Source: a virus. From it: DNA of 30,945 nt. The position numbers and the translations under genes are program-made. Shown in pieces: positions 1 through 10,604 of the stretch. Under the pieces are notes generated by a model. It had not been told where the DNA came from and did no database searches. It was given only the letters and a program-made list of their open reading frames with translations. The stretch covers positions 1 through 30,945 of IMG/VR virus record IMGVR_UViG_3300030106_004313; one strand, written 5' to 3'. Numbering within the stretch: position 1 is the first letter of the stretch; every line of letters starts with the position of its first letter.

Positions 1-407
1 CTAATCTCAGATTTATTAATATAGATATTACCTTGTGCTTGTCCTCTTCTATACTCAGCCTGAACAGCGGCTGAATAAGCACCATTCTCCAAAGCTCTAT
101 CTCTAATTGTCTGCAAATCTTTCAAATGTCGTTTGTAATTAACGCCATATTTTTCATCCAGTTCATCTCTATAAAGTTGAATTGCTCTAACAACATGAGG
201 ACAGATTTCAGGATTAGTCATCTCATAAGCTCTTGTATGAGCTGAAGAAGCTGGAAAGCCAGCATTTATTGCAGCTTCTCTCATGGTTATCATACCATCA
301 TTAGAGACAAGCTCTTTAACAAACTTTTCTTGTTTACGAGAAAGCTTGCTATGTATATCGACTTTTGGCCGACCTCTTCCTTTTTTCAAAGGTTTTAAAA
401 TACTCAT
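1..407 (-). CDS. Terminase small subunit, partial (C-terminus off the left edge)
   Basis: The first 135 residues are visible, starting from the ATG at 405-407; the frame is still open at base 1. The small terminase recognises phage DNA and passes it to the large terminase for packaging into the procapsid. The basic N-terminus (KPLKKGRGRPK) is followed by a helix-turn-helix-like block, RKQEKFVKELV, then MREAAINAGFPASSAHTRAYE. That order is typical of Terminase_2-like small subunits. The following EKYGVNYKRHLKDLQTIRDR is probably the start of the central oligomerisation region. The ribosome-binding site is weak: the leader is T/A-only apart from AAGAT just before the ATG. The repeat-rich region upstream (485-592) could hold its binding site or its operator. 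The family call rests on motif recognition only. The large subunit would be expected just beyond the left edge. Confidence 0.75.
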   Translation of the reverse strand, partial: MSILKPLKKGRGRPKVDIHSKLSRKQEKFVKELVSNDGMITMREAAINAGFPASSAHTRAYEMTNPEICPHVVRAIQLYRDELDEKYGVNYKRHLKDLQTIRDRALENGAYSAAVQAEYRRGQAQGNIYINKSEI

Positions 408-484: not shown

Positions 485-592
485 TATGGTTACATATTTG
501 TATATCAGAAATGTAACCATATATGTAACTGCTATAATTCTTATATATAAAGGGATACAGAGTAAAAGTTACATGGTTACACTAGTTACACC
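485..592. repeat. Cluster of six GTTACA sites, with an 11-bp inverted repeat
   Basis: In about 105 bases GTTACA occurs on the plus strand at 489, 568, 576 and 585, and as TGTAAC at 512 and 524. Two sites form a perfect 11-bp inverted repeat, TATGGTTACAT (485-495) and ATGTAACCATA (511-521), separated by 15 bases. Three plus-oriented copies sit 8-9 bases apart at 568-590. The cluster lies in the leader of the terminase small-subunit gene. It looks like a protein-binding array: an operator, a packaging recognition site, or origin iterons. The repeats are directly visible; the function is inference. Confidence 0.7.
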
Positions 593-646: not shown

Positions 647-677
647 AAAAAAGCCCCCGACATTTCTGTCGAGGGCT
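647..677 (-). terminator. Rho-independent terminator after the 688-1152 gene
   Basis: Read on the minus strand, AGCCCTCGACA, loop GAAA, TGTCGGGGGCT forms an 11-bp stem with one mismatch, followed directly by TTTTTT. It lies 11 bases after the stop of the hypothetical gene at 688-1152. It would separate that transcript from the terminase leader. Confidence 0.85.
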
Positions 678-687
678 GTAAGTTGTG

Positions 688-1152
688 TTAAGCACTTAGT
701 TTATTAGATTTAGTTTTAGGATGAATATAATCTACTATGGCACCTACTAAAACCATATGAGATTTATTACGTCCAAAGTATCGACTAGCTTCTCTATTAG
801 CTTCATGTAGTCCAAACTTACTAATCAGATCCCAAACTATAAATTCGTTAGAGACGGCTTTCAGGCTTTTGACCGGTTTGCCTTGGACATAAATAGTAGT
901 CTTATGACTTCTAAAATTACTTTTATGAACTCTTACAAATTCTTCAATGTAACTTCTTGGAAAATTTCCTTTCCCATCAAAGTTTTTACTAGAAGTATAG
1001 TAAGTAGGGGCATTTAAGCTGTATGGATCTCCCAAAGTATCATAAATCTCATTTTCAGATAATTTGCTCAAGAAAGTTTTTATTTTTCTTGTCATGATCT
1101 TATCAAACTTATTTGCTTTACTTATTAATTTTTGTTTTTCACTTTTAAGCAT
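688..1152 (-). CDS. Hypothetical protein, 154 aa, basic
   Basis: I do not recognise this protein. It is lysine-rich with no cysteines, no signal peptide and no membrane segment. The N-terminal 45 residues look helical, and the middle (SYIEEFVRVHKSNFRSHKTTIYVQGK) looks like mixed alpha/beta. The start is well supported: AAAGGAG sits six bases before the ATG. It is a single-gene transcription unit, with a candidate promoter overlapping a palindrome upstream (1238-1288) and an intrinsic terminator downstream (647-677). Its own promoter and terminator suggest regulation independent of the methyltransferase gene behind it. A basic, monocistronic early phage protein could bind nucleic acid or act on the host, but nothing visible proves it. 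Confidence 0.7.
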   Translation of the reverse strand: MLKSEKQKLISKANKFDKIMTRKIKTFLSKLSENEIYDTLGDPYSLNAPTYYTSSKNFDGKGNFPRSYIEEFVRVHKSNFRSHKTTIYVQGKPVKSLKAVSNEFIVWDLISKFGLHEANREASRYFGRNKSHMVLVGAIVDYIHPKTKSNKLSA

Positions 1153-9075: not shown

Positions 9076-10604
9076 TAAAAAGGCTCCTTTTCTGTTTGTA
9101 AATTTGGTGTATTAAACTCGTGATCCGTGTTACGGTGTGCGGGTATTGCCCAAACGCGTACGGATCGGTTACTGATTTTCATAACCGTACTGGACCCGTT
9201 AATATCCCGTAAGCGTTGGGCAATCTTGTGCGACTTGTACTCAAAAAACTTATTCTTCTTAAGAAAGTTTTCAAAGTCTCTTAGTCGAAAGTAAGTTAAG
9301 TGGGCCTCTTCATCGGTCCAAGGCCGTCTTAACAATATCTCTTCTCTTTCCTGTGCTTGCTGTAAGTGTCTGCAAAACTCTTCTAAGTAATCGTAGAACT
9401 GTCCGCTTGTGCTCGCATCTTCTGCTACTTCTATGATAGCGGCATCGTTTTCTTTCATCTCATTGAGCAAAGCACTGATCCGTGCTTCCCAAGTTTCTTT
9501 TCGTACAGAGCGTGGCATAAAGTTAAGCTGTTCCATGCAAGCTTTCTGAAAGGTAGGCTGTGATAGCAATGCTTCTGTGTCTAGCTCTAGGGGCTCCCCT
9601 GAGACGTCTAAAAACCAAACAGGCGGTGTTGAGTTATATTTTCTTAAATTAGCGACTGTTGCCCCTTGTACGGCCGACCCTACGCCATGTAATCGTGTTC
9701 TGCACAGCTCTTTGTTACAATGTGCATTAATCGGACTATCTGTGCATTTGTAGGCATAGTCTTTCTTCTTAGCTTGGTTGGCAACAAGATTGACCTCACT
9801 TAATGGTAGTGGTGGATCAAGGTAGGTCATGTTGTAGGTTAGTATCTCTGTCTCCCAGCTGTCAGGAAATGCTTTGCGTAAGTAAACAGCAAGGTTAAAT
9901 AATCCGTTGTTACGTCCACCCTCACTGATTTTACTTTCACATAAAGTCTGTAAGCATGGTGGCCCATCTTTAATTGGTGTGTCTTTTATATCTTCTACTT
10001 GTAATGCTAGTATCTGCTCGTTATTGAGCTTATATTGATCGTACAGGGCGATAAATTCTTCTAAGGTAGCAGAGGTGCCGTCATCCTTTATCGCGTACCT
10101 AAGGCCACTTTCTGCGTCATAATACGGTAAGTTTAAAAAATTACCTACATCGCCACGATCTAAATGTAATTTAATCTGTTTTGGAAATATCTCGCTTTGA
10201 CCGTAGCCAAGAGCAGCTGATATATGTTGTAAGGTTTGTTGCATATCTTTTGCTTCTACCCAGTCTTCGCTAAATAAAAAGCAATGTGCCCCACCACTTT
10301 TGGAACGACATACAACCAGTGGTAGTTTTACTTTTCTTATCTTCTCGACAAGAACTTTATGGTCAAGAGGATAGGTATCAATATCAATACAACCCCACTT
10401 ACACTGTGATTGTGCATTGATCGGTATGATACCGAGAGAGTCCCCTTTTCCTGACAGATGGCCCACCCAATGATCCTTGGTCCGTGGCTCCCTAACGAGA
10501 GCCGCTCTACCGGACTTCTTACCATTGGTTTGGGTCTTATCTATCTTATAAGTGCCAAACGCCTCTTCTAGTCCGTCAAATATTGAACTAAAAGTCTCCC
10601 ACAT
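9075..10604 (-). CDS. Archaeo-eukaryotic-type primase (TOTE/prim-pol-like), 509 aa
   Basis: The N-terminal half is an AEP-superfamily primase domain. The metal-binding IDID (D74, D76) follows CKWGC. Next comes CRSKSGGAHCFLF with the S-x-H-like nucleotide-binding element (S103, H107), then EIFPKQ (138-143) and GNFLNLPYY (154-162). This series matches TOTE-type and related phage primases. A primase C-terminal region follows: EGGRNNGLFNLAVYLRKAF (227-245) and a probable zinc site, C286 with H294, C295 and C300. The last 190 residues are a separate helical domain I do not recognise, perhaps for helicase or DNA binding. It makes primers for PolA in the same operon. It overlaps the SSB-like gene and the 101-residue gene by one base each. 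This is not a T7 gp4-type primase-helicase. Confidence 0.85.
   Translation of the reverse strand: MWETFSSIFDGLEEAFGTYKIDKTQTNGKKSGRAALVREPRTKDHWVGHLSGKGDSLGIIPINAQSQCKWGCIDIDTYPLDHKVLVEKIRKVKLPLVVCRSKSGGAHCFLFSEDWVEAKDMQQTLQHISAALGYGQSEIFPKQIKLHLDRGDVGNFLNLPYYDAESGLRYAIKDDGTSATLEEFIALYDQYKLNNEQILALQVEDIKDTPIKDGPPCLQTLCESKISEGGRNNGLFNLAVYLRKAFPDSWETEILTYNMTYLDPPLPLSEVNLVANQAKKKDYAYKCTDSPINAHCNKELCRTRLHGVGSAVQGATVANLRKYNSTPPVWFLDVSGEPLELDTEALLSQPTFQKACMEQLNFMPRSVRKETWEARISALLNEMKENDAAIIEVAEDASTSGQFYDYLEEFCRHLQQAQEREEILLRRPWTDEEAHLTYFRLRDFENFLKKNKFFEYKSHKIAQRLRDINGSSTVMKISNRSVRVWAIPAHRNTDHEFNTPNLQTEKEPF

Follow-up and report, generated by a model that had tools for sequence, protein, structure and literature searches.

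A small terminase-associated repeat site with an unusually changeable word: a probable phage packaging site

The small terminase gene (terS) at the edge of the virus record IMGVR_UViG_3300030106_004313 is preceded by a compact array of six GTTACA words, which is a TerS-associated repeat site with an unusually changeable word, of a kind that is itself already known. We consider it probable, at about 60%, that the array is where the small terminase (TerS) of this phage would start DNA packaging, in the manner of a pac or cosB site. The preliminary description of the sequence had named a packaging site, a replication origin and an operator as candidates. Packaging is now the best supported of the three because relatives keep the array beside terS although their DNA further upstream differs, because arrays accompany terS even in phages that have them 3' of the gene, and because in HTVC027P-like relatives the word tracks the DNA-binding half of TerS over gp27, gp28, gp33 and the large terminase (TerL). 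An origin, however, remains the main rival.

Composition and conservation of the array

The window, as we call the whole stretch of 30,945 bp analysed, contains exact GTTACA copies beginning at 489 (+), 512 (-), 524 (-), 568 (+), 576 (+) and 585 (+) (Table 1), which confirms the four plus and two minus copies first noticed by inspection, as well as the close grouping of three of them at spacings of 8 and 9 bases. The perfect 11-bp inverted repeat that two copies had been said to form is likewise present (485-495, TATGGTTACAT; 511-521, ATGTAACCATA), and stretches to 16 nt at 88%. Relative to the terS start codon, and in gene direction, the copies start at -183, -174, -166, -122, -110 and -87. 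The hexamer is about twofold common in the window overall (39 observed, 18.6 expected), its other groups being pairs at most. The assertion that clustering at this density is very unlikely to arise by chance held in simulations: four or more GTTACA within 108 bp occurred in 0 of 300 first-order Markov windows, and the best of any eligible hexamer reached at most five copies (2 of 60 simulated windows) against six in the real window. Outer inverted repeats around the window array, a further candidate feature, were set aside (score 11).

Table 1. Coordinates of the array and of neighbouring features in the window
Feature	Position	Strand	Evidence or remark
Whole repeat array, six exact GTTACA/TGTAAC	489..590	.	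Word search, simulations, relatives
Copy 1, opens direct triple in terS direction	585..590	+	Columns 0.79-1.00 conserved, 43 unique leaders
Copy 2	576..581	+	Columns 0.86-1.00, 43 unique leaders
Copy 3, weakest conservation	568..573	+	Columns 0.67-1.00, 43 unique leaders
Degenerate extra direct copy GGATACAG	553..560	+	Intact as GGTTACAG in L031 and certain other relatives
Copy 4, inverted, 61 bp from copy 1	524..529	-	Word search
Copy 5, inverted, within inverted-repeat arm 511-521	512..517	-	Word search
Copy 6, within inverted-repeat arm 485-495	489..494	+	Invariant, 43 unique leaders
Small terminase gene terS, 135 codons seen, reaches window edge	3..407	-	PHROG_51 terminase small subunit, 5e-8
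Intrinsic terminator-like hairpin, between array and gene 688-1152	652..677	-	Sequence scan
154-aa gene upstream of array	688..1152	-	ORF

The window TerS belongs to the SF6/SPP1 Terminase_2 family, as judged by profile and by helix-turn-helix (HTH) fold. PF03592 (Terminase_2) was matched by 66 of the 77 aligned members of its family at E<=0.01, the window protein itself giving no Pfam match, and the family profile matched the SF6 TerS structures 4zc3, 3zqp and 2cmp at 2e-6 to 6e-6 (4zc3 at 2e-6). In an AlphaFold2 model of the window TerS, with a mean pLDDT of 79, residues 42-49 and 56-63 form helices, which we take as the HTH; SF6 TerS was the top Foldseek match of this model, a weak one (E>0.05). 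The product of the 154-aa gene upstream of the array had no PHROG or Pfam match, and the sequence at its position varies among many of the relatives displayed. Rfam had no match in the window.

From 354 stretches that encode relatives we retained a close set of 80 viral contigs whose TerS is 85-100% identical; 73 of them have the 200 nt upstream of terS needed for a leader count, the other seven ending too early. The array occupies the same place in these close relatives, as the preliminary description would lead one to expect: the leader holds six GTTACA copies in 62 of the 73, seven in eight, five in two and three in one. Over 43 unique leaders the majority frequency was 0.941 in the 36 hexamer columns and 0.761 in the 66 columns between (p=4e-7). 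The array accompanies terS while the DNA further upstream varies among many relatives displayed, and in these window-type relatives both the TerS helix and the word are almost constant. As in pac-type sites, the array adjoins the small terminase gene and its repeated elements are conserved as such. The leader with three copies (L005) lacks the stretch from direct copy 3 to direct copy 6, either because the repeats recombined or because the contig was misassembled.

Whether GTTACA is as dense elsewhere could be followed in four long relatives (records of 57.9-60.5 kb; G002 covered to 60,000). In each, as in the window, no GTTACA group is larger than that at terS. Looser groups occur in two of them, five copies over 193 bp in G002 and two groups of three in G001. 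In G003 a different hexamer, ACCTGC, also reaches six copies, within 130 bp.

We infer TerS binding, DNA wrapping and TerL cutting at the array as follows. Protomers of an SF6/SPP1-type TerS, arranged as a ring or as several oligomers, would bind the GTTACA words through their HTH domains; bending or wrapping of the DNA would join the direct triple to the inverted pair, from which it is separated by a set number of helical turns; TerL would then be recruited, cut nearby and package. Contig ends crowd to some extent near the array at no fixed base, in a collection that holds only terS-bearing contigs and in which AT-rich repeats also break assemblies. In G004 the two contig ends share a 77-bp overlap, which lies some 29 kb away from the array.

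Other words in distant relatives and their relation to TerS

More distant relatives were gathered as 80 loci each round TerS of the DSL-LC04 (D), HTVC023P (P23), HTVC027P (P27) and L317 (P317) types, together with 32 loci of the 023Pt_psg01 type, and the range from about -1.3 to +1.7 kb around terS was searched for arrays. Every TerS type shows arrays of different words near terS, upstream or downstream. P23 loci carry ACTAGGAA at about -200 to -95, roughly the place of the window array, with TerS helix and word both nearly constant. P27 and P317 loci have many words, in arrays 3' of terS (beyond gp28 in the HTVC027P type), and 67 of 161 loci had one that qualified, at +780 or beyond. D loci, 29 of the 62 tested (81 in total) passing the cut-off, show ATTACGTC, GGTGTAAC, CTGGTCAA and others, and CTGTGCCA occurs in 10 of the 32 loci of 023Pt_psg01 type.

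Flanking outer inverted repeats are statistically supported in the HTVC023P type only, with a median score of 18 where 95% of shuffled controls scored 12 or less. They were rejected for window-type arrays, whose median of 13 is barely over the shuffled 95% point but equals the direct-repeat control, and for P27 arrays (score 10, equal to control); by eye they were also present in some D loci. Examples of about 24-36 nt were seen in L084 (5724-5944), in L082 (5101-5303) and, upstream of terS, in L159 and L160. Separately, a GCGCGCG stretch plus GGG flanks one side of the array at many D and P27 loci (L159 and L269, for example), and a CAAGC/GCTTG tract in one orientation lies about 450-950 bp upstream of terS in HTVC027P-type and 023Pt_psg01-type loci, and is contained in the gp32 reading frame in HTVC027P.

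Co-variation between word and TerS was assessed on the 46 unique TerS of the 67 P27 and P317 loci with a qualifying array, two sets that share contigs. Words were compared by matrix similarity, since GTCTCA and TGAGAC, for instance, are reverse complements. Loci entered this test by score and position cut-offs only; an earlier matrix comparison had dropped 23 of 81 loci in which no array was evident by eye and 13 without the stretch. Some automatically called words are possibly wrong, that of L321 (CTGAACCC) resembling another tandem tract. In partial Mantel tests the word correlated with TerS residues 1-68 given residues 69-148 (r=0.259, p=0.0007) more strongly than in the reverse arrangement (0.156, p=0.013). 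Arrays in these loci lie 3' of terS, so plain linkage would be expected to favour the C-terminal half of TerS.

The N-terminal half (TerS-N) also held its signal against neighbouring genes. Given gp27 (n=33) the partial correlation of word with TerS-N was 0.343 (p=0.0005), and that with gp27 given TerS-N was 0.184 (p=0.009); the corresponding values were 0.334 (p=0.0005) and 0.054 (p=0.19) for gp28 (n=36), and 0.447 (p=0.0005) and -0.02 (p=0.58) for gp33 (n=28). With TerL as control (n=22), TerS-N given TerL gave 0.305 (p=0.0007) and TerL given TerS-N 0.077 (p=0.22); in this subset, however, the C half (0.43) exceeded the N half (0.35) in plain correlation. It could be argued that gp28, a BLAST homolog of which is present in 30 of 45 array loci, is the protein that reads the word, but this candidate was rejected, as its own correlation given TerS-N is not significant and no HTH is evident in it by eye.

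Within TerS the position of the signal is less sharply defined. The predicted helix given the rest of the protein yielded 0.199 (p=0.001) and the rest given the helix 0.214 (p=0.0017); the rest of TerS thus has an independent signal, and common descent is not removed. Median word similarity falls as helix residues 41-48 accumulate differences, from 0.67 at none through 0.55, 0.51, 0.46, 0.43 and 0.38 to 0.27, the last value coming from two pairs and the pairs not being independent. Similarity was nevertheless below 0.6 in 52 of the 149 pairs with identical residues 41-48. The helix AVVRASEL pairs with four consensus words, GTTACA being common to two of them. GAGACA words accompany every one of the six unique TerS that carry T or S at residue 52; the helix ARSYASKL is paired with CAGTCACA, while ARQYASQL, with K52, is paired with the GAGACA word GTGAGACA, the rows in each case being related by descent. 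The TerS of L300 and L295 have four differences in the first 100 residues, and their arrays are of TTGAGACA and TTGTAACA. In L115 and L110 the TerS are one helix residue apart (KVTAWKL and KVIAWKL) and the called words are CTGGTCAA and GGCCTTAA.

The lead of the DNA-binding half was seen in one group of relatives. The D set showed no such preference (N given C 0.184, p=0.07; C given N 0.25, p=0.03; 18 unique TerS), and in P23 there was no correlation of word and TerS (-0.055 and 0.043; 42 unique TerS). TerS appears from these comparisons to be the best-supported reader of the word, short of a simple helix code.

Look-alike arrays and rival readings

A DNA-only scan with TGTAACNNGTGTAACNNTGTAAC returned at least 119 viral loci and 42 bacterial genome loci. 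Among the matches listed, a window-type TerS lies within 1.5 kb of the TGTAAC triple at 94 of the 119 viral loci, leaving 25 without one, and at none of the 42 genome loci. Neighbours were annotated at 14 of these 25 listed TerS-negative loci: the array adjoins a primase/helicase in seven (L456, L470, L480, L490, L503, L526 and L566), a TerS of a different family (phrog_606) in three (L530, L544 and L562), TerL in L554, a major head protein in L534 and a protein of no family in L476 and L492. The TerS of L480 lies 3.5 kb from its array, and the TerL of L476 4 kb away. The layout of a TGTAAC triple followed by inverted copies was seen beside primase/helicase genes in L470, L490, L526, L566, L582 and others.

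Counting from where the triple begins, the offset of the first inverted copy is 59-62 in 91 of the 93 listed TerS-positive loci that have one (one has none), loci that are also related to one another. In the listed TerS-negative viral loci it is 59-62 in 10 of 20 and 47-49 in six unrelated ones, five more having no inverted copy, and in genome loci 59-63 in 8 of 21, with 21 more lacking such a copy. The step of 11-12 bp between these spacings suggests helical phasing and hence a looped or wrapped complex.

Since look-alike arrays also occur in replication modules, the main rival is an origin at which the words would be iterons for a phage initiator, the primase/helicase or another protein, and the A/T tracts would melt. 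Phage P4 alpha protein binds similar-looking iterons, and P4-type iteron origins, which lie beside the primase-helicase, resemble in layout and word the arrays adjoining primases in other phages, some of which have the 59-62 spacing. In three of the four long relatives the detrended cumulative GC-skew reaches its minimum close to the array, at distances of 0.4, 1.6 and 1.1 kb (7.9 kb in the fourth), and the stretch that holds the array ranks with the AT-richer parts in the four. In the 11 genomes with both proteins, moreover, the partial correlations of the word with primase (0.28, p=0.03) and with TerS-N (0.31) are alike. It should be emphasized, however, that the neighbour of the window array is terS, the window primase (9078-10604) being 8.5 kb away and the gene at 688-1152 having no family match. 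In addition, L395 and L398 keep the word (ACCTACAA and AGCTACAA, matrix similarity 0.99), a TerS-N that differs by 1% and an identical TerL, although their primases are only 31% identical, and the three arrays that adjoin phrog_606 TerS also speak against an initiator. We therefore regard an origin as unlikely, if still the strongest competitor of the packaging site.

That a phage repressor or activator binds the array to control transcription of the terS operon is considerably less probable. The array does sit between the terminator-like hairpin and the terS start, and operators typically have repeated sites. No sigma-70-like promoter match was found in 300-800, however (0 against 2.8 in shuffles, with a consensus that may not fit this host), so that overlap with a terS promoter was not seen in the window; a repressor operator for terS is unlikely because of this and because the HTVC027P-type array lies 3' of the gene, beyond gp28. 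Nor does the window hold a second comparable GTTACA array, and gp28, given TerS-N, fails to track the word.

Seven bacterial genome loci were scanned for neighbours, which were primase-like in L582 and, more weakly, in L584 and an integrase in L592, L603 and L611; in L602 and L613 the single protein scanned in each had no family match. That the array serves some other phage DNA-binding protein, for partition, recombination or an integrase-arm-like function, its link to TerS being shared neighbourhood, is very improbable, for despite these three integrases, and the primase being the sole unlinked DNA-binding protein in the co-variation tests, no integrase was found among ten window proteins scanned and the word tracks TerS above the neighbours tested. 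The L603 array (about 2700-2805 of a SAR116 single-cell contig, near lepA) has direct copies at 0, 9 and 17 and inverted copies at 60 and 71, the window copies lying at 0, 9, 17, 61 and 73. TerS of the window family was not found in the L603, L611 and L592 genomes, where an empty search proves little; these loci are possibly a satellite or integrated element borrowing a packaging site.

Comparison with known packaging sites and implications

The probable packaging site resembles characterized sites to different extents, as far as the available parts of the sources describe them. Lambda cosB, with R1-R3 bound by gpNu1 in lambda, 21 and N15, also consists of repeated sites by the TerS gene, one in the opposite orientation, and in lambda-like phages the R sites and TerS recognition helices differ together (PMC4669245). 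In contrast with cosB, the words here are shorter, the copies number six to seven and the word types among relatives are many more; TerS is Terminase_2/SF6-like, and cosN and cohesive ends are unseen. The pac of SPP1/SF6, phages with a related TerS, similarly has direct repeats, over the terS promoters and start, whereas here conservation of the words is strong and, in one group, they change with TerS. P1 pac, a stretch of 161 bp that is likewise linked to the terminase gene, comprises seven hexamers (PMC10028697), but its TGATCA/G carries a Dam site and lies inside pacA, whereas GTTACA is without GATC and lies in the leader.

Counting against a packaging site read by TerS is the SF6 TerS DNA-binding domain, which was measured as a weak, non-specific binder, according to the portion of the report available (PMC4737164). 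The accessible text of a 2022 review (PMC9611059) likewise describes contacts of pac-type TerS as weak and sequence-independent, and calls TerS the most enigmatic packaging factor, with recognition unsolved. The available parts of the HTVC027P transcriptome paper (PMC12753301) and of the HTVC023P-type genome paper (PMC9599517) name no packaging site, nor do the titles and abstract beginnings of literature on HTVC023P, HTVC027P, pelagiphages and packaging treat such a site.

A wider reading, which we put forward tentatively and consider on the whole doubtful, is that TerS and its site switch specificity together across a large group of phages from marine and fresh waters. Close relatives would carry mutually exclusive words on a conserved, helically phased scaffold, the direct triple followed by inverted copies 59-62 or 47-49 bp on, and this scaffold would be reused beside other TerS families and primases. 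L603, an integrase-borne element with a near copy of the window layout in a SAR116 genome without a detected TerS of the family, would then be akin to a packaging parasite.

With 46 distinct TerS that have a called word, some a few residues apart, sequence-specific recognition becomes testable by simple swaps. Such recognition would help to predict from sequence where uncultured phages have their packaging sites, and to recognize phages or satellites able to package one another's DNA.
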